Of a stretch of 35,276 nucleotides of DNA, positions 605 to 34,809 are shown one piece after another. The DNA is from a virus. Under the pieces are notes generated by a model. The model saw only the letters and a list, made by a program, of their open reading frames with translations. It made no database searches and was not told the DNA's origin. How positions within the stretch are numbered: the stretch's first letter is position 1; every line of letters begins with the position of its first letter. Where the stretch lies: the IMG/VR virus record IMGVR_UViG_3300021559_000233, positions 1 to 35,276 of that record. One strand, given 5' to 3'. Position numbers and translations under genes: made by a program.

Positions 605-1443
605 CGCCTCACCATCGGTTGTTGGGCCTTCGCCGCCGTCGTTTGCTTCCTCACCGAAGCCCCGTTGACCTTCCCCTCCGACATCGCCTCGATGAATTGC
701 CCGATGTGAGCCGGCATCACCCCAGTTTTACTCAACGAACGGCATCCTGGGCCCCAGACCCCATCCGACGAGGTGAAGAAGACCCGGTTGTTGTGGCTGC
801 CCCCGGCGGAATCCTTGGGGGCCACATCGAACCAAACGATATCATGGAACATCGCCGCGACCGCACTCCGCGAGGCCATGTTGGGCATCAGTGGAACGAT
901 CCCAGGCCCACTCTTGGGTTTGTCGCCCGCCTCGTCGCCACCGACCTCCATGTAGTGGTTGACCACGATGAGATGCGCGGGGATGGTCTGGAGAAGGTTG
1001 ACGATGTGTTTGATCCTGCGGGTGAACTCCGGGTGGGCCTTGCGGCCATCTTCGTTGCCCTTCTCGGATTTGCTTTGGTGAAGGCATTCCTCCATGAGGG
1101 AGTCGGCGAAAAAGTTCAAGGGGTCGACTACCACCGTCTTGATCTTCTTCTCTTTCGCATCGCGCTTGGCTTCGATAATGTATTTGGTCATCGAGTCGAA
1201 GCCTCCGACGCGCTCGAAGTCGAACCCCTTCGTTTCTCGACGAGCGCCATTCAAGGCAGAGTCAGTCTTCTCGCAAAGGAGAACCCTAACTGGGCCGGGG
1301 GAAGTCGCGACTGCGTGGGTGGTGGAGCCCTTCTTGGGCCACGCGAGCCAGAGCATCCGTAGGAATTGCTCGGAGGTGAGGGAAGAAGCCGGGATCGGCA
1401 TCAGGCGGATCCTTTCGTTGGTGAAGTCGTTGGTGTAGTGCAT
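601..1443 (-). CDS. Sak4-like RecA-family recombination ATPase with altered Walker A
   Basis: 280 residues with the layout of phage Sak4/AAA_24-type RecA-fold ATPases, which anneal DNA together with a phage single-strand-binding protein. A P-loop-like segment (AWPKKGST, residues 34-41) is followed by a strand-turn, a Walker B strand (IKTVVVDP, Asp107) and a sensor-like strand (HLIVVNHY). The P-loop departs from the consensus: the position of the invariant Lys in GK[ST] is Ser40. Lys37 and Lys38 lie just before the Gly. The ATG at 1443 has no obvious ribosome-binding site; an internal ATG at 1401 (Met15) has AAGGA eight bases upstream and may be the real start, giving 266 aa. The downstream gene overlaps by ATGA. 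Fold confident, activity uncertain. Confidence 0.75.
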   Translation of the reverse strand: MHYTNDFTNERIRLMPIPASSLTSEQFLRMLWLAWPKKGSTTHAVATSPGPVRVLLCEKTDSALNGARRETKGFDFERVGGFDSMTKYIIEAKRDAKEKKIKTVVVDPLNFFADSLMEECLHQSKSEKGNEDGRKAHPEFTRRIKHIVNLLQTIPAHLIVVNHYMEVGGDEAGDKPKSGPGIVPLMPNMASRSAVAAMFHDIVWFDVAPKDSAGGSHNNRVFFTSSDGVWGPGCRSLSKTGVMPAHIGQFIEAMSEGKVNGASVRKQTTAAKAQQPMVRR

Positions 1444-1492: not shown

Positions 1493-1651
1493 TCAACGCG
1501 GCGGCAAGTCTCTTGAGCGTCTCGCTAGAAGGATTCCTTCGATCTTCTTGACGACCACCGGATCGTCCTCGAACCGCTTCGCTAGGACGGCCAACTCACG
1601 GTCGTTTAGCCCTTCGAGTAGACGGATCGACCAGCCACTAAGGTTAGTCAC
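1493..1651 (-). CDS. Hypothetical 52-aa protein with GTG start
   Basis: A 52-residue gene starting at a GTG that overlaps the TGA stop of the gene upstream (GTGA), preceded by a good GGAGGAGAG ribosome-binding site inside the upstream coding region. The protein begins VTNLSGWSIRLLEGLNDREL and has a helical, charged middle. The frame stays open further upstream, but there it only shadows the 92-aa gene. Function unknown. Confidence 0.65.
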   Translation of the reverse strand: MTNLSGWSIRLLEGLNDRELAVLAKRFEDDPVVVKKIEGILLARRSRDLPPR

Positions 1652-1926
1652 TTCGCCCTCTCCTCCGCATCCTTCTTCCACTCCGCCCTCACGTTCACGA
1701 CGCAAGCCCCGCAAGCCCTCAACCCCCCGAGCGGGATCTTGTTGGTCTCCAAGTCGTAGTTGTTGACCGCATGGCCCGGATGCTCGAAGACCCACTCGGT
1801 CGCCTCTTTGTTCCGGCCGCAGAAGGTCCGATCGCCATGGCTTCTGATGCATGCGATCATCGCGTCGCCCGGCTTTCGGTTGGAGACAACTGGCTCGGCT
1901 TGTTTCGTTGACCAGGGGCCAAACAT
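1648..1926 (-). CDS. Hypothetical Cys-rich 92-aa protein
   Basis: 92 residues with cysteines and histidines spaced as in a small metal-binding protein: MIACIRSHGDRTFCG near residue 25, then a His in EHPGHAV, then ACGACV (residues 71-76), then a basic C-terminal helix. This suggests a zinc-binding fold, although no exact family is recognised. The ATG at 1926 is preceded by GGAGAGG, 11 bases away; that sequence lies in the end of the upstream 51-aa gene, whose TAA is six bases before this start. Confidence 0.7.
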   Translation of the reverse strand: MFGPWSTKQAEPVVSNRKPGDAMIACIRSHGDRTFCGRNKEATEWVFEHPGHAVNNYDLETNKIPLGGLRACGACVVNVRAEWKKDAEERAK

Positions 1927-4170: not shown

Positions 4171-5108
4171 ATCAAGTTGTTGTTCGCCCCGTGGGTGAAG
4201 CTTTCCGCTCCACTGGCCCCGATCAGCGATCCGATCCGGCCTTGCGCGTAGGCTCCCCAGCTAGCGGCGATGCCGAAGGCCCCATTAGCCGCCGTCGAAG
4301 TGTTAGGGGTGTCTTCCGTCTTGGTGCCGGTGGGGTTACCCAGATGAACGACGCTGTTTTCAGAGGCAAAAACCCCATTCTTCCCGTTGGCCCCAATTTC
4401 ATCGGAGGCCACCTCGGCGTAAGAATCGCTCTCGACGTGGACCCCGTCGTTGGTGTTGCCGTCGATCGTAGTGACGTAGATGCGGGCCGCGGAGTTGCGC
4501 TGAACGCGGATGCCATGGCCGCCATTGGAGCTAACGACACACGGGCCGGTGGCGCCTTCGGAAGCCCCAACCCCGTCGGTGAAGCCCACCCGCACGTAGG
4601 AGTTTTCGTTCACCACCACCCCGTTGCCGGGGTTGTTCGTCACGACGGCGTTGACCACGAAGCCGGTGCTGGCCCGCTGGAAGTGGATCCCATGCCGCCC
4701 GGCTTTGTTGACTGTAACTCCGTCGATGGCGATGCGGGAGCCCCCGTTGATCGAGATCCCGTCGTTGCCCCCACTCACCGCGAGGTTTTTGATCAAGAGA
4801 GCCGAAACCCCGTCGAGTTCCAAAACATTGAGGGTGGCATCCGGCCCGTTGATAGTTCCGCCTCCGGTTCCATCGAGGGTGACTCCATTCCCCTCCGGCG
4901 CGGTGAGCAGAATGTTTTCGTTGCAGGTTCCCTGGACCAAAACGGTGTCGCCTCGCTTTGATTTCGCGAGCGCCTTCCCGACGGTGTCGCCCGCAACGCA
5001 GTCGACAACGCGGGTCTTCGGGCCATCGTCGTCGGCCTTTGCGAGGGGGAAACGTGGGGCCAAACACCCGAGGGTGAAGGCGAGGATGATGAGGATGATT
5101 CGGTTCAT
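4167..5108 (-). CDS. Exported right-handed beta-helix repeat protein
   Basis: 313 residues from the ATG at 5108, which has a strong AAGGAGA site and overlaps the HNH stop by ATGA. The longer open frame upstream only shadows the HNH gene. The N-terminus is a signal peptide: MNRIILIILAFTLG, then a likely signal-peptidase I site after PLAKA, before DDDG. The mature part consists of about ten turns of a parallel beta-helix (pectate-lyase/NosD-like), with repeated 'NDGISI', 'RHGIHF', 'GNGVVV', 'GHGIRV', 'NDGVHV' and 'KNGVFA'. These are typical of surface or periplasmic carbohydrate-binding or lyase folds, but no catalytic set is visible. A secreted protein inside a replication operon is unusual; it could modify the host surface or be a moron-type gene. 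Confidence 0.75.
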   Translation of the reverse strand: MNRIILIILAFTLGCLAPRFPLAKADDDGPKTRVVDCVAGDTVGKALAKSKRGDTVLVQGTCNENILLTAPEGNGVTLDGTGGGTINGPDATLNVLELDGVSALLIKNLAVSGGNDGISINGGSRIAIDGVTVNKAGRHGIHFQRASTGFVVNAVVTNNPGNGVVVNENSYVRVGFTDGVGASEGATGPCVVSSNGGHGIRVQRNSAARIYVTTIDGNTNDGVHVESDSYAEVASDEIGANGKNGVFASENSVVHLGNPTGTKTEDTPNTSTAANGAFGIAASWGAYAQGRIGSLIGASGAESFTHGANNNLM

Positions 5109-5977
5109 GATGGGTCTCCTTCTTCGAAAATGTTTGGGGCACCGGCCGGGCGAACGTAGTCGCGCAGCCGATCTTTTGGTCGATTCCGGAAGCGAACCCG
5201 CTGCCACTCGAGCCGCTCTAGGTCAGTATCGTTCGAGAAGGCCGCATGCTGCTCAGGAGTAAAATGAGAACGCGGCTCGAACAAGTTGCACTTGTGGCAA
5301 AAAGCTAAACTAGCGTCGCTCTCGGAGATGTCACCGTGAAAATAGTAACGCTTCAAGTAAAGGGGCGTCGGTGGGACGAGGGCGAGTTTTCTCTCGCGGG
5401 GCCTGAGCGACAGGGGGCGGTAGCGGACCCCAGAGCTCCGCTGCTCTACGTGGCCGAGCTCGGTTAGCCGACGCCCAAAAGCTGTCTGGGAAAGCGGCTG
5501 GAGCTTGACCAGCTCGACCCATTCAACAAAGCGGGCGTAGAGCACCGTCGGGACCTCTCGCCCCGGGACGGTACACGCCTCGATGAAGAGCGCCACGGGG
5601 CAATTCTCACGCTCTTCGGCCTCAACGGAGGGGCCGTCGGCCTTCCCGCGGTTGCACTTGAAGCAGGCGGGAACGAGGTTCTTCTCGTCGTCCGTTCCCC
5701 CGCGTGATCTGGCGAGGATATGGTCGATCTCTAGCTCGGCGTGCCTAGCCGATTTTCCGCAGTAATAACAACGAAATCCATGCTTCCTGAGGATCCTAAA
5801 CCTCTTCCGTAGCCCGATCGGCTTACGGCGGGTTGACGGCACCTTCACGGCAGGTTCTCCAGGCAACATGCCGTACCTTTTCTCTAGGGGATCCATACGG
5901 TTAGCCTTCGGTACGGCACCTACGGCATGTTTTACGCTCTCGGTAGTAGTAGCAGTAGGTTTTCGATCACTTTCCAT
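5105..5977 (-). CDS. HNH endonuclease carrying an SF3-helicase C-terminal-like module
   Basis: 290 residues from the ATG at 5977. A start at 6016 is open, but its first codons fall inside the TGCCGTA repeats. Domains: a polar N-terminus; an HNH nuclease at about 58-112 with CYYC (70-73), the catalytic DH (85-86) and CFKCN (105-109); then at about 127-194 a module that repeats the C-terminus of the neighbouring SF3 helicase (FVEW, an identical TAFGRRLTELGH block, RYRPL); then a 95-residue tail with CHKC and SHF. HNH proteins of this kind are usually homing endonucleases. Fusion to a piece of the adjacent gene suggests insertion into, or recombination with, that gene. The codons of the shared block mostly differ between the two copies. 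Confidence 0.8.
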   Translation of the reverse strand: MESDRKPTATTTESVKHAVGAVPKANRMDPLEKRYGMLPGEPAVKVPSTRRKPIGLRKRFRILRKHGFRCYYCGKSARHAELEIDHILARSRGGTDDEKNLVPACFKCNRGKADGPSVEAEERENCPVALFIEACTVPGREVPTVLYARFVEWVELVKLQPLSQTAFGRRLTELGHVEQRSSGVRYRPLSLRPRERKLALVPPTPLYLKRYYFHGDISESDASLAFCHKCNLFEPRSHFTPEQHAAFSNDTDLERLEWQRVRFRNRPKDRLRDYVRPAGAPNIFEEGDPS

Positions 5978-6109
5978 CGCTATATAACTCCCAACCCTGA
6001 AAAACATGCCGTACATGCCGTACGGTTATGCAACCAACCAATTTCATTGGAACTTTCATACGGCATGTTGAAAAACAAAGGTGCCGTAAACATGCCGTAA
6101 CCTGCCGTA
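5869..6109. repeat. Iteron-like cluster of nine TGCCGTA repeats
   Basis: Nine exact copies of the 7-mer TGCCGTA lie within 241 bases, in both orientations: plus-strand copies start at 5869, 6007, 6016, 6082, 6093 and 6103, and minus-strand copies (TACGGCA) start at 5912, 5921 and 6059. Five extend to ACATGCCGTA or its complement, and CCGTACGG at 6018-6025 is a palindrome. Six copies fill the 135-base gap between the SF3 helicase and the HNH start; three lie in the 5' part of the HNH gene. Chance would give far fewer than one copy. Repeats of this kind beside a replicative helicase suggest a replication origin or a multi-site operator. Confidence 0.7.
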
Positions 6110-9616: not shown

Positions 9617-9714
9617 ATCCAGCGGCTTGGCCTTGGTGGCTCCTCATCCTGATCGGGATCATCATCGCGGTCATCGTTTTCTTCCTCCTCCACTGGATCC
9701 TGGAGAAGATATGA
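9613..9714 (+). CDS. 33-aa single-span membrane peptide
   Basis: A 33-residue gene with an excellent AGGAGG site seven bases before the ATG, overlapping the previous stop by ATGA and the next start in the same way. After MNPAAWPWW comes a continuous run of Leu/Ile/Val/Phe (about residues 10-27) long enough to span the membrane, ending HWILEKI. It may be a small holin-like or accessory membrane peptide, but its size gives no more detail. Confidence 0.65.
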   Translation: MNPAAWPWWLLILIGIIIAVIVFFLLHWILEKI

Positions 9715-9932
9715 CCGCGGTTGCTACAAAGGAGCTGTCGGAATACCAGCTCGACATCCTCAAGGTGTTGGAGCATGACGGGCCAACGAAGGCTTTTCTC
9801 TTCAACGACGAAGACCTCGACCCCCTCTTCAAGATGCGGCCTAGATTGATCCGGATCATACCCGGCCATGTTGAAGCGGTGGTCGACATCACGGGGGATG
9901 GGATCAAGAAGTTGAGGGCTTACGGCCGATGA
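9711..9932 (+). CDS. Small winged-helix-like protein
   Basis: 73 residues from the ATG at 9711 (ATGA overlap). The pattern LSEYQLDILKVLEHDG, acidic turn, then strands ending VVDITGDGIKKLRAYGR resembles a small winged-helix fold, with 'T.DGIKKL' in the usual place after the wing. It could bind DNA or be an adaptor protein. No family is certain. Confidence 0.6.
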   Translation: MTAVATKELSEYQLDILKVLEHDGPTKAFLFNDEDLDPLFKMRPRLIRIIPGHVEAVVDITGDGIKKLRAYGR

Positions 9933-10357
9933 TCGTTTATAACGGTTGGGAGATCTACGTGAAGAGCGCATCGAAACGAATCGGACCTCTAGTCCTCGAG
10001 ATCCACAATATCGGCAACGAGTATTTTTGGGACCTTATGCCGTTCGAGACCCCCTCCGATGACACTTGGGAGCTCCACGGGAAGAGCTCCACCTTCGAGA
10101 AAGCCCAAGCCGCCGCCGAGGCCATGGGCCAAAAAGCTTCGATGATTGATCTCCACTGGGGTGTATGGATCACCCAAGATAAGCCCCGCAAAGGGCGAAC
10201 AGAGCCGGATTCGTATTGGTGGCAAGGCTTGGACTACTCCGGGGACAGCATACTCTCTAAAGAAGAGGCGGAAGCCGTTGCGCTGAAGCTCCAGAAGGAA
10301 TGCTCAACCTGGAGTTATGAGGCTAGGCCCTACCTCCGGTCCGAGGGGGATGGATGA
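9929..10357 (+). CDS. Hypothetical 142-aa protein
   Basis: 142 residues, Trp- and Tyr-rich, joined to both neighbours by ATGA. Sequence includes MIVYNGWEIYVKSASKRIG at the start and a possible two-part repeat: both halves have a Trp-rich strand followed by a helix with EKAQAAAEAM or KEEAEAVALKLQK. No family is recognised. The duplicated strand-helix design suggests two copies of a small alpha/beta unit. Confidence 0.65.
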   Translation: MIVYNGWEIYVKSASKRIGPLVLEIHNIGNEYFWDLMPFETPSDDTWELHGKSSTFEKAQAAAEAMGQKASMIDLHWGVWITQDKPRKGRTEPDSYWWQGLDYSGDSILSKEEAEAVALKLQKECSTWSYEARPYLRSEGDG

Positions 10358-27108: not shown

Positions 27109-27960
27109 TCAGTAGTGAATAGCTCGCGCTAGATCATCGGAAGTACCGGTGTGGTTAGCGCTACGGTGTTTTGGGGTGGTCAACGCTTTCTCGGCGGACC
27201 ATCCAAGGCTAGTTATTCTCGTCCACACTAAGTAAAGGTCTGCGCCATAATTATCGCAGGCCTCTTTGAGGCTCATGCGCTCGCCGTAAACTACGATCCA
27301 GCGTGTAGATCTACGATTGCGTGTTTGTTCTATTCGTGTAGCCCAGCGACAGTTATCGGGAGAGTACGGTCCGTTGCCGTCAATACGATCCACTGAGTGG
27401 CTCTTGGATGGTCTAGGACCCATATCGGCTAGAAACCGCATGAAGCCTCCCGGCCCTAACCAAACGGGATCAACAGTGATCCCACGTCCGCCGTATCGGA
27501 TATACGACTTAGTTTTGGTATTCTGGCATCTTCGAATAATGCCGCACCAAATACCGTACTCGTTTGTCTTCGATCTCCCGTGGGGCCTATTTATACATCC
27601 GCAAGATTTTGTCTTGCCGGACTTGAGCCGCGTGACAAAGGAGTGCATCTCGCGCCCGCAATCGCAGCGGCACACCCAGCCCCATTTACCATCACGGGCT
27701 CTACGCTCAGGGCGTAGGGCAACTAGCCGCCCAAACCGTTCACCGGTGATGTCGATCCAGGGCGCAGCCGATACTTTACGTCCAACTGGCTCACACCCAC
27801 ACGATCGCACACCGCCGTTGCGTAGGTGCCCGCTGCGGACGAGCTTATCATTACCGCAATCGCATCGGCAGAGCCAGACGGCTCCATTGTGACGTTCGGC
27901 TACAGCAACAGCGACCAGTCGTCCGAACTTCTGGCCTCTGAGATCGATCGACGTGGTCAT
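27109..27960 (-). CDS. AP2/HNH-type homing endonuclease with doubled Cys domain
   Basis: 283 residues from ATG 27960 (a GTG at 28005 would add 15 residues). Two copies of a Cys domain open the protein: FGRLVAV...CRCDCG...SCGC at about 10-57 and FGRLVAL...CRCDCG...SCGC at about 75-122. The HNH-type core follows: YGIWCGIIRRCQN, YGGRGITV, DMGPRP, the HSVDRIDGNGPY block and NCRWAT, then a C-terminal helix-turn-helix (MSLKEACDNYGADLYLVWTR). This is a free-standing homing endonuclease family of phages. The 207-aa protein at 32361-32984 is a relative with a single Cys domain. Confidence 0.85.
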   Translation of the reverse strand: MTTSIDLRGQKFGRLVAVAVAERHNGAVWLCRCDCGNDKLVRSGHLRNGGVRSCGCEPVGRKVSAAPWIDITGERFGRLVALRPERRARDGKWGWVCRCDCGREMHSFVTRLKSGKTKSCGCINRPHGRSKTNEYGIWCGIIRRCQNTKTKSYIRYGGRGITVDPVWLGPGGFMRFLADMGPRPSKSHSVDRIDGNGPYSPDNCRWATRIEQTRNRRSTRWIVVYGERMSLKEACDNYGADLYLVWTRITSLGWSAEKALTTPKHRSANHTGTSDDLARAIHY

Positions 27961-27982
27961 CCCGAGGAGGATAATACCAGCT

Positions 27983-28267
27983 CTAGTGAGCCATCGCAAC
28001 GCCACCGAGTAGCCCCAAAATGCCTAGCGCTACCGCAGCTCCAGCGACTGCCCCCGCAATAGCCCCCGGGACCCAGCTCGTGAGAACCTTGGCCGCTGCA
28101 AGCTTCAACGCAGTGTTGGCGAGGCTCTTCGTCATCACCTCGCATCGGGTGATCCGGTCATCAAACCCATCCACCATGGGGATGCGCGTCTCGATGCGAT
28201 GGATGAGGGTGTCAACCTTCGAGGTGAGGAGTTCCAGTTGGCCCCGGATTCCGTCGAGGTCGTTCAT
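27983..28267 (-). CDS. Coiled-coil protein with C-terminal membrane segments
   Basis: 94 residues from ATG 28267. N-terminal coiled coil (LELLTSKVDTLIHRIETRI), an acidic middle, then a hydrophobic Gly/Ala-rich end (VPGAIAGAVAGAAVALGILG). Similar in plan to the protein at 25021-25443, though not in sequence. Holin-like or membrane-associated proteins have this form. The ribosome-binding site is weak (AGGG next to ATG), and the gene ends 22 bases before the HNH start. Confidence 0.6.
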   Translation of the reverse strand: MNDLDGIRGQLELLTSKVDTLIHRIETRIPMVDGFDDRITRCEVMTKSLANTALKLAAAKVLTSWVPGAIAGAVAGAAVALGILGLLGGVAMAH

Positions 28268-29615: not shown

Positions 29616-30310
29616 TACTTCTTCTCCTTGAGCGCCTCGGCGGCGATGGGGTGCAACTCCCAGACGTCACACATGTGCTTCGGTTCGAAGCGACGTACGG
29701 TCCACTTCCTCAGCGCTGCCTCGAGCTCGGCGATGCGAGCGGTGGAGATCTCCAGCAACCGATCACGCGCAGCGGACAGCTTACCTCCAAGCTCGCAGTT
29801 TGGCTGATGCTCGGCCCAGATCGCCTCGAGTTCGGCGAGGCGCTTCTCCTTCTTGTCGACCACACGATTCTGGAATTCGAGCGCTTTGGCGGTCAGCTCT
29901 ACCTCCACCAGGCGCTCGCAAATCATCGCCACGTCGAGCGCGGTGGAGGCGAGAATTGATGGCGGAATCCTTGCGTGCTTCTCCCGGTAGATTGGGGCCA
30001 ACTCCGCCGCTCGCTTCGCAAGCTCGCTCGTACCCTCCGCGCGGGCCCGCTCGATGTCCGCCAGGCGCTTGACCGCCCCCAGCAGCCCATCGCATACGAG
30101 ATGCACCGACTCGCCCTCGGCGCCGTCGTTGCGGAACGACTCGCGCAGAAATGGGATCGCTGCCGTCGCCCTGGGGCTGACTCCCGCGCGTTCCGTCGAC
30201 GCCTCGATGTCTGCCAGACGGTCGAGGGCGGTGGCGATCGCCTCGGCTTCCGTGCCTGAAATGCCGGTGCCGCTTCGCAGTACCTTCGCCAACTCTCTCG
30301 CGTCCCTCAT
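29615..30310 (-). CDS. Helical coiled-coil protein
   Basis: 231 residues, nearly all helix-forming and charged, with heptad-like stretches (TEAEAIATALDRLADIEAST, KKEKRLAELEAIWAEHQ, TARIAELEAALRKW). The two 'RLADIE(A/R)' segments suggest an internal repeat. No motif for an enzyme. Joined to the lipoprotein gene before it by ATGA and to the zinc-ribbon gene after it by TAATG. Confidence 0.65.
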   Translation of the reverse strand: MRDARELAKVLRSGTGISGTEAEAIATALDRLADIEASTERAGVSPRATAAIPFLRESFRNDGAEGESVHLVCDGLLGAVKRLADIERARAEGTSELAKRAAELAPIYREKHARIPPSILASTALDVAMICERLVEVELTAKALEFQNRVVDKKEKRLAELEAIWAEHQPNCELGGKLSAARDRLLEISTARIAELEAALRKWTVRRFEPKHMCDVWELHPIAAEALKEKK

Positions 30311-31461
30311 GGGTGCGCCGAGATGATAGGCGATACTTCCATCGTCGAAGTCACGTCACCGCTACCGGTGAGGATCGTGACCGTATCCGACGGGGAGGCC
30401 GTAGCAACTGCGCCCCCGAAGTGCATTTGCTTGTTGCTAAAGTAGCATCCTTGAAAAACACCCGTGCTAGCGGCACCGAATGGGAACGAGAAAAACCACT
30501 TCTGCCCGCCCAGGGGAGTAAACTGGCTAGGCCCACAAGAGTTACATTGCGTCCCGTACTGCCAGGTGAGAAGCCCGCTCGTGGATTGGGGTTCGCTCAG
30601 GAATACGCCGGCGCTCGCCGCGAACGTGCTCGTGTATCGGCTAGCGTATGCGATCCCATCGGAATCACCCACCGGGCCCTTGTAGTAATAGGAGACAAAC
30701 TCCTGATCCTGCCCTGGCTGCCGAACCGCCGGCCACCAATCGATGTAGGCCCCACCCTCATCACCGTACGAGAGCGTACCGCCTAGGGCCCCATGACTCG
30801 TATCCGTGAGGTAACCAGTGCCGATGAAGTAGGACCAGGAGTCGGTGGCGATCGTGTCGAACGCACTCCAGAACCCGAACCCGATCCATCTCTGAGCTAG
30901 CGCTTGAGACCAGGCTTGCAGCGTTACGTTTTGACCGGCCGACGACGCCGTGACCGAATGGTCGTACACCCAGTTATAGAGCGTCGCATTCGGGGCCAGG
31001 ATGAAGTCCTGACTGATCCAAGATCCTCGTGCGGGCTCCATCTGACAGGCGGTGACGAACACGTTGTAGCCGTCCGTGTCGAGGCACCATCCGGGCGCCT
31101 GCCGAAGCGTGATCTCGTAGTGGGAGCAGTAGCTAACGGTCGGATCGCAGCCGGAATAGATCGACGTCAGCGTCCAGTCTTGCTGGCGGCTACCGCTTAC
31201 TGGGTTGGCCCTGACGGCCATGTGGTCGGCCGGGGGCCAGCCGGAAAGCTCGAGAGCCAATCCGGCCCCTCCGCCCGCTCCCAAGCCGCCGTTGGTGATC
31301 CCGCCGTACGCCGCGAAGCCCGACGTGGGTTGACTGATCGATGCGCTGGCGACGTTATTCGTCATCCCGTCGACTATGAGGTCCCCGAGCTCGGGGGGCC
31401 TCGGCGATTCGCTGCTACATGCGCAGCAGAAGGGTACAGCTAGGATCACTAATTTTTTCAT
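30307..31461 (-). CDS. Probable lipoprotein with large beta-rich domain
   Basis: 384 residues from ATG 31461 (a start four codons earlier is also open). The signal peptide MKKLVILAVPFCCACSSE has cysteines at the expected lipidation site. The mature protein is rich in aromatic and polar residues: WCLDTDGYNVFVTACQ, WIGFGFWSAFDTIATDSW, EFVSYYYKGPVG, and many Gly/Trp repeats, like secreted carbohydrate-binding or surface proteins. A short resemblance to ricin-type lectin repeats (CLDTDG) was seen, but the QxW motif is missing. Function unknown. Confidence 0.65.
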   Translation of the reverse strand: MKKLVILAVPFCCACSSESPRPPELGDLIVDGMTNNVASASISQPTSGFAAYGGITNGGLGAGGGAGLALELSGWPPADHMAVRANPVSGSRQQDWTLTSIYSGCDPTVSYCSHYEITLRQAPGWCLDTDGYNVFVTACQMEPARGSWISQDFILAPNATLYNWVYDHSVTASSAGQNVTLQAWSQALAQRWIGFGFWSAFDTIATDSWSYFIGTGYLTDTSHGALGGTLSYGDEGGAYIDWWPAVRQPGQDQEFVSYYYKGPVGDSDGIAYASRYTSTFAASAGVFLSEPQSTSGLLTWQYGTQCNSCGPSQFTPLGGQKWFFSFPFGAASTGVFQGCYFSNKQMHFGGAVATASPSDTVTILTGSGDVTSTMEVSPIISAHP

Positions 31462-31463
31462 GG

Positions 31464-31637
31464 TCAATTCCATTTCTCATCGGGTTTGGGTTGCTGCCAT
31501 CGGCCCGTTTTCTCTTCCGGGTCGACGAGGGTGTTTTTTGAGGCCTCCCAGACGTCGCCAAAGGCGAGGAGCTTTGCGGAGAGGTTGAAGAGGAGGCCCC
31601 CGAGGCGGAGGGCTATGAGTTTGAAAATGTTTTTCAT
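31464..31637 (-). CDS. Small basic amphipathic protein
   Basis: 57 residues from ATG 31637, which has AAAGGA eight bases upstream and overlaps the RNA-ligase-like gene's stop by ATGA. N-terminal amphipathic helix MKNIFKLIALRLGGLLFNL followed by a polar tail ending PKPDEKWN. Possibly membrane-associated. Function unknown. Confidence 0.6.
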   Translation of the reverse strand: MKNIFKLIALRLGGLLFNLSAKLLAFGDVWEASKNTLVDPEEKTGRWQQPKPDEKWN

Positions 31638-32224
31638 CGTCGGTTTCCTTTCGAGCCCCACGGGAGGCCGTAGTCATCGCGCCGGATCTTCGTTCGCGGC
31701 TCACCGTCGAGCCAGAAAACGATCCCCTCGATGTTAGCCGCGCTGAGGAATACCCGAAGACCTTCGAAGCTTCGAGGGGCTACGTCAAGAACCTCGGCCC
31801 CGTGAGGGATAAGCATATCTACGTCGAGGCCCTCCGGGTTTCCTTGAAAGTGGGGCCCGCATAGCTCATAGGTGCCGTCGGGAAAGCTTGATTGACGCTC
31901 AAAGGCTAGGCGATGCCATTTGCTTTCCGGCTCAGTGTCGACCGGGATCCAGTGGGGCCAGTGGCCTGTCGTTTCGTCGGGGGAGGGTTGACAGGGGATG
32001 CCGAGCGGAGGCGGCGGCTTCCCCGATTTGGCGTCGTAGCGCTTGTAAAGTTGACCGTCTTTGATCAAGCAAGCGGTGCCATCGCGCTTTCGCGTAGCGG
32101 CGCCTTTGCCTTCAAGAACCCACTCGAGCCCCGGGGTGACGGCGGAGGTGAGAACCGCCGCGGTTCCTTTCCCGTTAGCGCGTGGAATGAAGTTCCGAAC
32201 GAAGAGGCAAGGGATCTTTTTCAT
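31634..32224 (-). CDS. RNA-ligase-like nucleotidyltransferase (DUF5565 type)
   Basis: 196 residues. The order of motifs is that of the covalent nucleotidyltransferase superfamily: motif I RKRDG with the predicted nucleophile Lys46, a tyrosine-containing stretch (LYKRYD), GHWPHW, DGTYELCGP, motif IV EGIVFW (166-171) and motif V TKIRRDDYG (178-186). This matches the DUF5565 family, annotated as RNA ligase 1-like in other phages. It would seal RNA breaks, for example after host tRNA cleavage. Only the catalytic module is present. Its ATG overlaps the displaced helicase tail's stop by ATGA. Confidence 0.7.
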   Translation of the reverse strand: MKKIPCLFVRNFIPRANGKGTAAVLTSAVTPGLEWVLEGKGAATRKRDGTACLIKDGQLYKRYDAKSGKPPPPLGIPCQPSPDETTGHWPHWIPVDTEPESKWHRLAFERQSSFPDGTYELCGPHFQGNPEGLDVDMLIPHGAEVLDVAPRSFEGLRVFLSAANIEGIVFWLDGEPRTKIRRDDYGLPWGSKGNRR

Positions 32225-32358
32225 TCCTCAGCCTTCAACCTTTCATACAAACGAGCCATCCGTTCCGCCGCCGACGACCCTTCGAGCCCCTTCAGATCCG
32301 CATGAAGTTTATCATCGGTCCTCCCGATGGCCCCCGCGAATTTGTCGAGCTTGGCCAT
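32221..32358 (-). pseudogene. Displaced copy of the SNF2 helicase C-terminus
   Basis: 45 codons (MAKLDKFAGAIGRTDDKL ... YERLKAEE) located directly after the HNH stop. Codons 3-45 align without gaps with the last 43 residues of the helicase at 32981-34564: 33 of 43 are identical. Among those 33, 21 use a different codon, so this is not a recent copy. It ends with the same AEE-stop and keeps an ATGA overlap with the RNA-ligase-like gene, which is where the original helicase should have ended. It has an ATG with CGAGG six bases upstream, so it may still be translated. Confidence 0.8.
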
Positions 32359-33170
32359 AGTTAGCCTCGCCCCACTGCCCTCTCGGCACCCCATCCTCGA
32401 CGAATACGGGCGCGGACCGTATCCCGATGTAAGCCTAGCCGACGTGACCATTCGGTCAACGTAAAGGACTCGCCGTGAACAGTTAGCCGGACGTTGGTCC
32501 GGCAGTTATTGCTCTGCTGTTTCGGGGTGGCCCATCGGCAGTTTCCGGGTTCGTAATTTCCGTCGCGATCGGGAAACCGATCAATTGTATGGCCTACAGG
32601 CCTAGGCCCCATGTCGGACAAGAAATTCTCGTAGTGACGCCACCTCCTACAAACCCTGACACCCTTAGCCCCGTACCTAGGGTAGTCCTTAGAGGACTTA
32701 CTATAACAGCGCCGAAGCATGGCCTGCCATGTCGTCCAAGTAGGGCTATACGTATCCCCGTGGCGTCGATTACGCTTACCGTTCTCCCGTCCTCGTTCTC
32801 GCCCAAGACACCCACACGACTGGGATCGTTTAGCGATTAGGTTAGATTGCTGAATCGTTTTTTGAGTGCCGCAGTCACATCGGCAGACCCAGGCGATATT
32901 ATAGCCTGACCTAACCTCTCGAATGAGTCGGAGTCGACCGAAACGGTCACCTCGTTTTAGTTGGTGCTTTCGGGGAGCGCTCATTCTTCGGCCTTTAGTT
33001 TTTCGTATAGACGTCTCATACGTTCGGCCGCACCTTCAGCCTCTAAGCCGCGGAGGTCTTCGTTTAGCTTATCGTCAGTTTTTCCTACGGCACCGGCGAA
33101 TTTATCCAACTTGCTGAGCACTATTTTTTTTAGAAGATCGTCGGCTGTTGCTCTAGCTACGTAATACTGG
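32359..33170 (-). mobile_element. Candidate HNH element bringing its own recoded helicase 3' end
   Basis: Proposed unit: the last ~60 codons of the SNF2 helicase as now found (AT-rich, for example YYVARATADDLLKKIV with AAA, CTA, GTA, AGA codons) plus the whole HNH gene. The right boundary, estimated from the change in codon style near 33165-33175, is approximate; the left boundary is the duplicated 'KLDKF' join just after the HNH stop. No inverted repeats or target duplications are visible, which argues against a transposon and for homing by recombination. Confidence 0.55.
32361..32984 (-). CDS. HNH homing endonuclease inserted after the SNF2 helicase
   Basis: 207 residues, start overlapping the helicase stop by ATGA. 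One Cys domain (FGRLRLIREV...CRCDCG...SCGC, about 14-59), then the HNH-type core (WQAMLRRCYS, YGAKGVRV, DMGPRP, HTIDRFPDRDGNY, NCRWAT), then a helix-turn-helix (FTLTEWSRRLGLHRDTVRAR) that should set target specificity. It is a relative of the 283-aa protein at 27109-27960. Codons include CTA, GTA, TAC and AGA more often than in phage genes nearby. It lies between the two copies of the helicase C-terminus. Confidence 0.85.
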   Translation of the reverse strand: MSAPRKHQLKRGDRFGRLRLIREVRSGYNIAWVCRCDCGTQKTIQQSNLIAKRSQSCGCLGRERGRENGKRNRRHGDTYSPTWTTWQAMLRRCYSKSSKDYPRYGAKGVRVCRRWRHYENFLSDMGPRPVGHTIDRFPDRDGNYEPGNCRWATPKQQSNNCRTNVRLTVHGESFTLTEWSRRLGLHRDTVRARIRRGWGAERAVGRG

Positions 33171-34564
33171 ATCAAGATGTTGGCCCCCTCATGTCGGCCG
33201 AAGCGGCCCTCCCACTGGATCAACGTCGAGGGGGTCCACACCAATTCCGCGACGATCGCGACGTTGGCATAGCTTAGGTTGATGCCGGCTCTTGTTGAAT
33301 CCAACGTAGCGCAGAGAAGATCCGGTTGGCTTTCGATGATGGCCTTCCTTTTTTTGATCGGCACCTCGCCGGTGATGACCTCGACCCGGCAAGGGCGCTT
33401 CTGCCGGATCCCGTCGGCGATGAGGTCCGCGATGTGTTTCCGGTAGGTACCGACGACCACCTTCGCCCCCTTGCTGAGGTGGGTCTCGATAGAGTCGATC
33501 ACCTGAGGGAACTTTCCATCGGCGGCCATGTCGAGGGCCTTCCGCAGAAGCTTGTCAGACCTCAACGCGCTCGACGGGGCGACGATGTGCTTCTTGTCGA
33601 CCTCTAGGGTGATGATCTGGCGGGTTCGAGCCGGGAGCTCCAACGCGACGTCAGACTTGAGCCGACGGAGCATGAAATGCTTCAACCTCGCGTTTAGCTC
33701 ATCTAAATGAGAACTCCCCTTGAAGTTCCAAACATCGCGGGTGGTCTTCACCCCTTCGACTCGGATCTCAATGCTTTCCTTCTTGGCCCCCGCGTAGCGG
33801 ATGGCGAAGCCAAACCATTTCCCAAACCTCCCGGGGGAGATGGTCTCAACCGGGGCCCACAAGTCGACAATCTTGGACTGCACCGGGGTGCCGGCGAGCA
33901 TCATCCGGTAAGAGCAAACCGACGCGATGGCCATCGTTGACTTGGTTCGCCGGGATCCGGCTGACATGAGGTAATCCCCTTCGTCGATGATGATCGTTTT
34001 GGGGCCCCACTGTAGGATGGTTTCCTTCCAGGCGTGGAGGATGTCGTAGTGGATGATGACTACGTCGGGGTCGCCCTCGATGAGGTTTGGCTCGGTTCCC
34101 CAAAGGCGGGTTGTTTTGGCGACGGACCACCATCGGGGGATTTCGGAATCCCAAACCCCACGGACGAACATAGGGCAAACGATGATGGTTTTGCACTTGA
34201 GGGCCCGGGCCGCGGTGATGGCCTGGATCGTCTTTCCTAGGCCTAGATCATCGGCGAGGATGGCGCCCTCTTGCGCCTTCGCGATGAGGAACTCAACCCC
34301 CACATTTTGGTACCCCCGGAGGTTAGCGTAAGCCACCGGCATAATCGGGATCCCGACGGCGGTGTCGACTTCGCCGGTGACTTTGAGGCCCCTTTTCTGA
34401 AGCCGAGCCGCTGTTACCGCTACCGCATCGGCGTAGCCGACCCAAGCCTTGTTGGGGTCATCCCAACGCATCCCTGGGGTTGCTTTGCACTCGAACCTGA
34501 CGACGTTCGAGAAGCCGGACTTGATACCCCAGGTTTGGCGGTCGATGCGCACCACCGAGATCAC
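32981..34564 (-). CDS. SNF2-family DNA helicase/translocase with recoded 3' end
   Basis: 527 residues from a GTG at 34564 that overlaps the previous stop (GTGA) and has AAGGTGA upstream; the frame beyond is a shadow. Helicase motifs: I ADDLGLGKT (Walker A about 104-112), Ia-like IIVCPMFV, II IIIDEGD (about 191-197), III AGTPVQ (about 224-229), V/VI TPSTLIQWEGRFGRH with GRFGR at 453-457. An N-terminal beta domain (about 1-75) precedes it. SNF2 proteins move along DNA and may remodel replication forks or strip proteins. The last ~60 codons are AT-rich and have a diverged duplicate downstream of the HNH gene. Confidence 0.9.
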   Translation of the reverse strand: MISVVRIDRQTWGIKSGFSNVVRFECKATPGMRWDDPNKAWVGYADAVAVTAARLQKRGLKVTGEVDTAVGIPIMPVAYANLRGYQNVGVEFLIAKAQEGAILADDLGLGKTIQAITAARALKCKTIIVCPMFVRGVWDSEIPRWWSVAKTTRLWGTEPNLIEGDPDVVIIHYDILHAWKETILQWGPKTIIIDEGDYLMSAGSRRTKSTMAIASVCSYRMMLAGTPVQSKIVDLWAPVETISPGRFGKWFGFAIRYAGAKKESIEIRVEGVKTTRDVWNFKGSSHLDELNARLKHFMLRRLKSDVALELPARTRQIITLEVDKKHIVAPSSALRSDKLLRKALDMAADGKFPQVIDSIETHLSKGAKVVVGTYRKHIADLIADGIRQKRPCRVEVITGEVPIKKRKAIIESQPDLLCATLDSTRAGINLSYANVAIVAELVWTPSTLIQWEGRFGRHEGANILIQYYVARATADDLLKKIVLSKLDKFAGAVGKTDDKLNEDLRGLEAEGAAERMRRLYEKLKAEE

Positions 34565-34809
34565 GGCTTCACCTTGATCGCCTCGAAGATCCTCTTTGCT
34601 TCCAACCCCAGGCTCGTTATCCGCGCATGGCAAACATTTTCTGGGTCACATGCGCAGTCGTAGATCTCAACGAGGCCTCGCTCTTGGAGCCCGGTTAGGA
34701 TTTTGGTGACCGCGAAGGGAAAATGAAAGGCCGCCTCACAAGCCGGGGAGCAAACGTCACCGACGGCGGTCGAGAGGGCCCAATACTCTTGGCTGCTGAG
34801 GCCTTTCAT
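34561..34809 (-). CDS. Winged-helix-like protein with Cys residues
   Basis: 82 residues: SSQEYWALSTAVGD, then CSPACEAAFHFPFAVTKILT, GLQERGLVEIYDCACDPENVC and ARITSLGLEAKRIFEAI. The recognition helix followed by 'GLQERGLVEI' and 'ITSLG' is a common winged-helix layout. Extra cysteines (CSPAC, CAC, C) may bind zinc. It is translationally joined to the helicase by GTGA and could regulate or assist it. Confidence 0.6.
   Translation of the reverse strand: MKGLSSQEYWALSTAVGDVCSPACEAAFHFPFAVTKILTGLQERGLVEIYDCACDPENVCHARITSLGLEAKRIFEAIKVKP

Follow-up and report, generated by a model that had tools for sequence, protein, structure and literature searches.

In the window, the whole 35,276-nt stretch of IMG/VR record IMGVR_UViG_3300021559_000233, an HNH endonuclease gene lies between two diverged copies of the C-terminal end of an SNF2-family helicase (Table 1). 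The unit 32361–33166, consisting of the HNH gene and the recoded helicase end attached to it, is very probably a free-standing homing element of the HNH type whose mode of occupying coding sequence is 'end replacement'. The helicase appears to be kept whole by the rewritten copy of its end, which is presumed to have been brought in by the element together with the HNH gene. The coordinates of the helicase, the HNH gene and the detached tail given in the earlier note, as well as the ATGA overlaps and the position of the HNH gene between the two tails, all hold on recheck.

Table 1. Features of the helicase–HNH locus in the window.
Feature	Coordinates	Strand	Basis
SNF2-family helicase, whole gene	34633..32981	-	ORF
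Native-style helicase body	33167..34633	-	PF00176 E 5e-35; PF00271 E 2e-8; GC3 0.76; 61–65% aa to L004
Recoded helicase 3′ end, attached, ~61 codons + stop	32981..33166	-	GC3 changepoint; lower-GC3 codons like HNH gene
Repeated 43-codon tail, attached copy	32984..33112	-	33/43 aa, 80/129 nt vs detached copy
HNH endonuclease gene, 207 aa	32361..32984	-	phrog_374 E 1.2e-61; phrog_3377 E 2e-46; ATGA overlap with helicase stop
Detached (presumed native) helicase tail, 45-codon ORF with own ATG	32221..32358	-	GC3 0.65; DNA nearer L004
Repeated 43-codon tail, detached copy	32224..32352	-	Alignment with attached copy
ATGA stop/start overlap of detached tail and RNA-ligase-like gene	32221..32224	-	Presumed native junction
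RNA-ligase-like gene, downstream of native helicase tail	31634..32224	-	phrog_14301 RNA ligase E 2e-58; PF17720 RLIG1 E 2e-8

The attached and detached tails are 77% identical in protein and 62% identical in DNA over 43 codons, and 21 of their 33 identical residues are indeed encoded by different codons, as had been reported from first inspection. The match is not due to chance, since the pair is detected by tblastn with an E-value of about 1e-17 to 1e-18 and its alignment score of 179 lies far above the 99th percentile of 43 obtained with shuffled locus pairs. Comparison of the codon use of the two tails, as the earlier note had proposed, shows a different GC3 in each. Within the helicase gene GC3 drops from 0.76 to 0.41 at a changepoint at codon 490, which corresponds to position 33166 (permutation p = 0.002). 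The attached end is therefore foreign in style, and the recoded stretch comprises ~61 codons, exceeding the repeated tail; the border placed earlier at 33175 is correct to within three codons. The codon kinship claimed between the attached tail and the HNH gene is reflected in a lower GC3 of both (0.41 and 0.55, respectively), the detached tail having a value of 0.65 versus 0.76 for the helicase body. In the tail pairs of 11 cases the synonymous sites are saturated, with the same codon at 54 of 154 sites against 50.3 ± 5.3 if the tails were independent. Codon identity equals the random value and does not fall below it, so that divergence before transfer may account for the recoding as well as selection. 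The longest exact word common to both window tails is 8 nt, and it amounts to 6–8 nt in the six cases measured.

The HNH protein consists of a zinc-ribbon-like N-terminus, an HNH core and a C-terminal HTH-like region, where the HTH match at residues 174–196 is weak and lies under the curated cut-off. Searches of the protein against Pfam and NCBIfam gave no HNH match. The gene has its own start and stop, with the recoded end closing the helicase frame, and it is free-standing, lying neither in a self-splicing intron nor in an intein; an Rfam search including matches up to E 1 revealed no intron. At its 3′ end a GAGG motif is located six bases ahead of the ATG of the detached tail.

The same anatomy is present with many other targets. 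About 330 HNH loci contain eight further clear C-terminal cases, all with different targets, i.e., an ASCH-like protein (L161), a GH19 endolysin (L293), a portal protein (L015), an SbcC-like protein (L142), DnaB (L017), a perhaps spanin-like protein (L009), a DUF1064-like protein (L201) and a deaminase with a 52-residue tail (L563). Additional cases, again with all targets different, comprise one from a Vibrio phage in culture, a probable C-terminal case (L315) and three in which the N-terminal end is duplicated in mirror image (L237, L023 and Xanthomonas phage LucasX). The short tails in L017, L009, L315 and L603 rest on 10–17 residues.

For several of these loci alleles without the HNH gene are available, and in one case the empty allele is 92–93% identical in nucleotide sequence. 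The endolysin body of L293 matches the HNH-less Pseudomonas phage MR13 with 92.2% nt identity over 500 nt, and its detached tail and downstream DNA match with 93.4% over 290 nt, whereas the tails themselves share 37/75 nt (attached) and 68/75 nt (detached) with MR13. Thirteen Pseudomonas phage records match the L293 locus, with a two-piece match in nine of the ten listed. The comparison of L293 with MR13 is the decisive case for a foreign attached tail and a native detached tail. The detached tail of L161 and the native 3′ ends in LKA5, Magia and BgManors32 are 83–85% identical in DNA, whereas the attached tail cannot be aligned to them beyond an 18-nt stub, and in LKA5 a single gene matches both the L161 body and its detached tail. 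In L201 the detached tail outscores the attached one against all three uninterrupted relatives (3/3). In Vibrio phage 1.133.O the HNH gene and second tail are absent from five relatives that are 95–97% identical over the gene, and the polarity is reversed: here it is the attached tail that is native, and recoding affects the copy fused to the HNH gene. HNH presence thus varies at the same site, the gene being absent in L004 (the window's relative, see below), in MR13 versus L293 and in the five Vibrio relatives. The earlier proposal that such an element combines a nuclease with a recoded target end and displaces the old end is supported, most directly by L293/MR13 and consistently by L161 and L201. 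In Vibrio 1.133.O the detached end is not the native one, and for the window the two tails differ in their identity to L004 by only 86 versus 76 of 129 nt.

The Vibrio polarity is exactly what would be expected if the HNH gene entered beside the gene end and the second tail only restores the start region of the downstream gene (RBS, stop/start overlap), which is located within the tail. The exchange of the protein end would then be a by-product, and the attached tail may be native. The stop/start overlap between the detached tail and the ligase gene in the window, and the GTGA overlap of the native L293 tail with the next gene, agree with such an insertion. It is nevertheless unlikely, because in L293, L161 and L201 the foreign copy is the attached one, the codon-style break in the window falls in the attached end, the genes that follow in L161 and L142 begin further downstream and have start signals of their own, and the N-terminal versions duplicate the opposite gene end.

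The scans were tail-anchored, with shuffled pairs and curated gene triples as controls. End duplications occur in 7 of the 160 curated triples with an HNH gene in the middle versus 3 of the 1195 with other middle genes (Fisher p 2.5e-5), and these three control passes are two tandem whole-gene paralogs and one low-complexity sequence. A raw-ORF control was discarded, as GC-rich DNA has non-coding frames that match one another (67/1787 pass). High scores of L207, L158, L214, L187 and similar loci reflect HNH–HNH arrays or low-complexity frames, and L231, which was retrieved with the endolysin tail, is not counted as a case: its HNH gene, a shortened relative of the one in L293, is still fused to an endolysin tail but adjoins a tail gene. 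Bacterial genomes yielded few HNH loci. A second tail is missing at most HNH loci, which implies that either only a subset is of this type (~3–4% detected) or the old tail disappears as a rule.

This recurrence bears on a one-off horizontal transfer, in which the helicase end of a diverged relative and the adjacent HNH gene were recombined in, an unequal crossover leaving the old tail in place and the nuclease being a passenger. Co-transfer predicts that the attached end and the HNH gene share a lower-GC3 style, as they do, and horizontal transfer has been invoked for foreign C-termini in the mtDNA of Glomus (PMC3630166). However, the same anatomy is found around HNH genes with at least 12 targets, at the frequencies given above, and the presence of an HNH gene each time indicates that it is not a mere passenger. 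A single transfer of this kind therefore has a low probability; transfer is, moreover, largely compatible with a homing element, homing being a transfer route. It is very improbable that the helicase was split by the HNH gene, with the detached 45-codon ORF now acting as a subunit or peptide in its own right. The ATG of this ORF, the GAGG motif upstream and its conserved reading agree with that possibility, and split genes that remain functional with an HNH insert are known (nrdA of phage Aeh1; PMC2988022), but the helicase retains its full end and requires no split, and in L009 the detached tail is in a different frame from the HNH gene and lacks an evident start.

An uninterrupted relative of the joined helicase gene, which the earlier note had suggested looking for, is L004, a syntenic relative with a single tail and without the HNH gene. 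The two window tails are 60–65% identical in protein to that of L004, and at the DNA level the detached tail matches it in 86/129 nt and the attached tail in 76/129 nt; the helicase body (61–65% aa) is near synonymous saturation. Besides L004 the searches yielded just one distant helicase relative, and phage-database helicases share <30% identity and say nothing reliable about the tail, one of them scoring nearer to the attached copy (49 versus 37). A plasmid search with the attached tail gave no match and hence no donor. No close empty relative of the window was found, and the detached tail is presumed to be native mainly on the basis of codon style and the parallel cases rather than of phylogeny. 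These two lines speak for the earlier view that the old tail was pushed aside by a recoded end; in protein the window tails are closer to each other than either is to L004, and in DNA the detached one is only modestly nearer to L004. The closeness in protein would also fit a tandem duplication of the helicase end in this genome with later divergence and separate HNH insertion between the copies, but this is extremely improbable in view of the saturated synonymous sites, which also argue against the recent in-genome duplication named earlier as contrary evidence, the differing codon styles, the MR13 and Vibrio comparisons, which show duplication and HNH gene arriving together, and the result that no HNH-less relative with both tails, the other contrary finding named, occurs among L004, MR13, the five Vibrio phages and the ASCH, DUF1064 and portal relatives.

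From these sequences we infer cleavage, homing, self-immunity and translational coupling for the end-replacing HNH element. The enzyme would recognise the native helicase 3′ region where body and tail meet, near the point at which the detached tail begins. Once an uninterrupted allele has been cut, its repair with a copy that bears the element would insert the recoded last ~61 helicase codons together with the HNH gene. The recoded end would close the helicase frame and start the HNH gene through the ATGA, while the old tail would be displaced behind the HNH gene, open to translation and keeping its ATGA coupling to the RNA-ligase-like gene. Recoding would remove the recognition sequence and, with such short shared words, would deny homologous recombination a direct repeat for deleting the element.

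The closest known counterparts are fungal mtDNA endonuclease ORFs with a carboxy-terminal duplication, described for atp6, atp9, cox2 and nad3 of Glomus sp., atp6 of Allomyces macrogynus, cox2 of Phlebia and rps3 of Ophiostoma (PMC3630166, PMC4019555). As in the window, an endonuclease gene lies between an in-frame attached C-terminus and a displaced one, and the tails are alike in protein and poorly alike in DNA (91% aa and 63.5% nt for Glomus atp6; PMC3630166, PMC4019555); in the fungi the attached C-terminus is foreign and the displaced one native, as is presumed for the window, and the native tail is nearer to relatives. The fungal ORFs encode LAGLIDADG or GIY-YIG enzymes in mitochondria, whereas here HNH enzymes in bacteriophages are involved, with many targets, operon stop/start overlaps and N-terminal versions of a free-standing gene. 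The window element appears to work like the fungal mORF hybrids, yet it is not filed as a member (HNH, virus contig). Allomyces atp6, with which the earlier note had drawn a parallel, belongs to this group. In keeping with that note, no description of an end-carrying HNH element in phages was found in the literature, fungal mtDNA being the known setting. Introns bringing a substitute gene start are similar in that a mobile element supplies the start of its target, but no intron is found here and the HNH gene is free-standing. Phage free-standing HNH homing endonucleases, including T4 mobA-E (PMC2988022), the I-HmuI-like enzymes of Skunavirus (PMC12724721) and the HNN-AP2 genes of Xanthomonas phage (PMC2248197), share the HNH core with a C-terminal DNA-binding region and the variable presence among relatives, and the mobE start codon likewise overlaps the stop of the upstream gene; in the available portions of these reports they are described as intergenic or gene-splitting, and no second target end is reported. 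In HomeR, a synthetic Cas9 home-and-rescue gene drive in an insect (PMC7968924), a nuclease similarly targets a gene at its 3′ end and is inserted there along with a re-coded version of this end, so that the gene remains functional, whereas the present system is natural and occurs in phage.

We consider it rather likely that phages host widespread natural 'cut and rescue' HNH elements that carry a recoded 3′ or 5′ target end, and that many HNH genes merely overlapping an upstream stop are their aged remains. If true, this would add a further mode of gene occupation to introns, inteins and intergenic sites, and engineered home-and-rescue gene drives would have an equivalent in nature. The proposal is testable with existing phages and sequences, such as the occupied L293 versus the MR13-type empty endolysin allele, and Vibrio breoganii phage 1.133.O versus its HNH-less relatives. 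It would explain how important phage genes, such as those for the replicative helicase, portal and endolysin, can be colonised without splicing, and why mismatched gene ends are found beside HNH genes.

The window, an IMG/VR virus contig, shows exactly the layout described in the earlier note, in which an HNH gene lies between two diverged copies of the C-terminus of an SNF2-family helicase. The coordinates (see table), the ATGA overlaps and the number of recoded codons all hold. The start of the HNH gene overlaps the helicase stop codon (ATGA), and a second ATGA overlap joins the detached tail, i.e., the copy behind the HNH gene, to an RNA-ligase-like gene (phrog_14301). The detached tail and the attached tail, which is in frame with the helicase, share 33 of 43 residues and 80 of 129 nt; 21 of the 33 identical residues are encoded by different codons. 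Third-position GC (GC3) of the helicase gene breaks best at codon 490 (position 33166), with values of 0.76 before and 0.41 after the break (permutation p = 0.002), and therefore the foreign-looking stretch comprises about 61 helicase codons together with the HNH gene. The GC3 values of the HNH gene and the detached tail are 0.55 and 0.65, respectively. No tail duplication was scored around the second phrog_374-family HNH gene of the window.

Genes and tail copies at the compared loci
Source	Positions	Strand	Feature	Assignment or remark
Window	34633-32981	minus	SNF2-family helicase, 550 codons	PF00176 + PF00271
Window	32984-32361	minus	HNH gene, 207 codons	phrog_374, E 1.2e-61
Window	32358-32221	minus	Detached tail, 45-codon open frame	Repeats last 43 helicase residues
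Window	30307-31473	minus	388-aa lipoprotein-like gene	In L004 closely conserved and adjacent to the helicase
Window	27109-28005	minus	Second phrog_374-family HNH gene, 298 aa	E 1e-77; extra N-terminal zinc-ribbon-like repeat
Window	5105-6016	minus	Third, different HNH-type gene	phrog_14314, phrog_2118
L161			ASCH-like target	Domain match below curated cut-off; phage relatives found
L293			GH19 endolysin target	Domain match
L015			Portal target	Domain match
L142			SbcC-like target	Domain match
L017			DnaB target	Domain match
L009			Spanin-like target	By guess
L201			DUF1064-like target	Domain match below curated cut-off; phage relatives found
L563			Deaminase target, tail about 52 residues	Domain match below curated cut-off
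L315	8550-9380		Endolysin-like gene	Two tail copies (GRVVALFKPKRMP / GRVLDLFKPKRT) flank opposite-strand HNH gene
LucasX (L597)	713-775		Orphan native-like start	Upstream of HNH gene; cultured phage
LucasX (L597)	1647-1709		Second start, in use	Downstream
L231	7140-7735		HNH gene shortened at N-terminus	In-frame fusion to endolysin tail, joined to tail gene
L004	about 9666-10049		HNH relative	37% aa identity

Recurrence of this layout was surveyed at about 330 loci where an HNH relative closely follows the end of another gene. The last 60 residues of that upstream gene were compared with the 300 nt that follow the HNH gene, with shuffled pairs as control. Clear further C-terminal cases are present at eight loci (L161 to L563 in the table), every one with a different target. 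Locus L315, where the HNH gene has the opposite orientation, is probably a further case, in which the end duplication would lack translational coupling to the nuclease gene. The cultured Vibrio phage 1.133.O provides a short C-terminal case. Mirror images at the gene start are found in L237, L023 and Xanthomonas phage LucasX, with an orphan start upstream and a second start heading the downstream gene; in L237 and L023 the orphan start and the HNH gene form one continuous frame, and relatives of the LucasX target are annotated as ADP-ribose binding protein. Among curated gene triples, end duplication occurs with 7 of 160 HNH middle genes versus 3 of 1195 others (Fisher p 2.5e-5), the latter being two tandem whole-gene paralogs and one low-complexity case.

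The cleanest test of which copy is native is offered by the endolysin locus L293 and Pseudomonas phage MR13, in which the HNH gene is absent at this locus. The endolysin genes are 92.2% identical over 500 nt of DNA, and the detached tail with downstream DNA matches MR13 at 93.4% over 290 nt. The detached tail shares 68/75 nt and 24/25 residues with MR13, versus 37/75 nt and 15/25 residues for the attached tail. Because the gene body and detached tail match MR13 and the attached tail does so poorly, these alignments identify the MR13 gene as the empty allele, and the L293 insert as a recoded endolysin end plus HNH gene. The locus is matched by 13 Pseudomonas phage records, in two pieces in nine of the ten matches listed. 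The fusion at L231 would be an L293-like element that has recombined or decayed.

At L161 the detached tail is 83–85% identical in nt to the native ends of phages LKA5, Magia and BgManors32, to which the attached tail cannot be aligned except for an 18-nt stub. The detached tail of L201 outscores the attached one against 3/3 phages, with a margin of one point in one phage, and the orphan start of LucasX is closer to two relatives than the start in use, both scores being low. The polarity of Vibrio phage 1.133.O is opposite. Five relatives lack the HNH gene and have one tail each; their target gene, which the annotation of one of them calls NTP pyrophosphatase, is 95–97% identical to that of 1.133.O. 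They share 32–34 of 36 nt with the attached tail, and in the other copy, which is joined to the HNH C-terminus, the first 18 nt are altered. Here the attached tail is native and the recoded copy, on the other side, seems to keep the start region of the downstream gene; insertion and duplication again arrive together. Since this case runs the opposite way, polarity needs testing case by case.

For the window, the earlier note took the attached tail as foreign and the detached tail as old, a polarity to which the codon break and the parallel loci point. In the one syntenic relative, L004, the neighbouring genes are shared, the helicase shows 61% identity and a single tail is present; both the HNH gene at the helicase site and the ligase gene are absent. 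Between the L004 tail and the detached copy, 28/43 residues and 86/129 nt are identical; for the attached copy the counts are 26/43 and 76/129. The difference favours the same polarity, but weakly, because the helicase bodies are near synonymous saturation and the window tails are closer in protein to one another (77%) than either is to L004. Distant phage helicases are uninformative, one scoring closer to the attached copy and another being indifferent. The HNH relative elsewhere in the L004 genome indicates that such genes move about within this phage group.

In 11 tail pairs the same codon is used at 54 of 154 identical degenerate residues, versus 50.3 ± 5.3 if codons were independent; synonymous sites are thus fully saturated, with protein identity at 66%. 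The longest exact word common to both copies is 6–8 nt in the six cases measured, well below the about 25 nt needed for homologous recombination by RecA. Recoding fits two needs of the element, escape from its own cutting and from deletion via recombination between the copies. The saturation would be compatible with selection for recoding or with old divergence, and does not in itself prove selection.

The element is probably a free-standing homing endonuclease with its target inside coding sequence. The native allele would be cut near the gene end, and repair off an occupied copy would import the HNH gene together with the recoded end. The original end would be displaced but retained, mostly as an open frame that may keep overlapping downstream genes translatable. 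In L015, L017, L293 and L201 the detached tail continues the HNH reading frame; in the window, L161 and L142 it starts at an ATG of its own, and in L009 it is out of frame. Related portal genes in L005 and L006 are accompanied by a related HNH gene, with 62% identity to the L015 one; no second tail is recognisable at these loci, as expected if the displaced end decays later.

The known counterpart in fungal mtDNA consists of endonuclease genes associated with a foreign C-terminus, the native one being displaced (PMC3630166, PMC4019555), whereas the window case is in a phage; Tremella has introns with N-terminal duplications (PMC7315562). In the engineered gene drive HomeR, the 3′ end of the target is re-coded such that the target stays working (PMC7968924). 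The passages found in phage HNH gene papers (PMC2988022, PMC12724721, PMC2248197, PMC3706429) do not mention end duplication, and a phage case of this layout was not found in the open-access literature, where absence is no proof of novelty. Endonuclease-borne replacement of gene ends is already known as a kind from fungal mtDNA, and the phage form is a variant of it.
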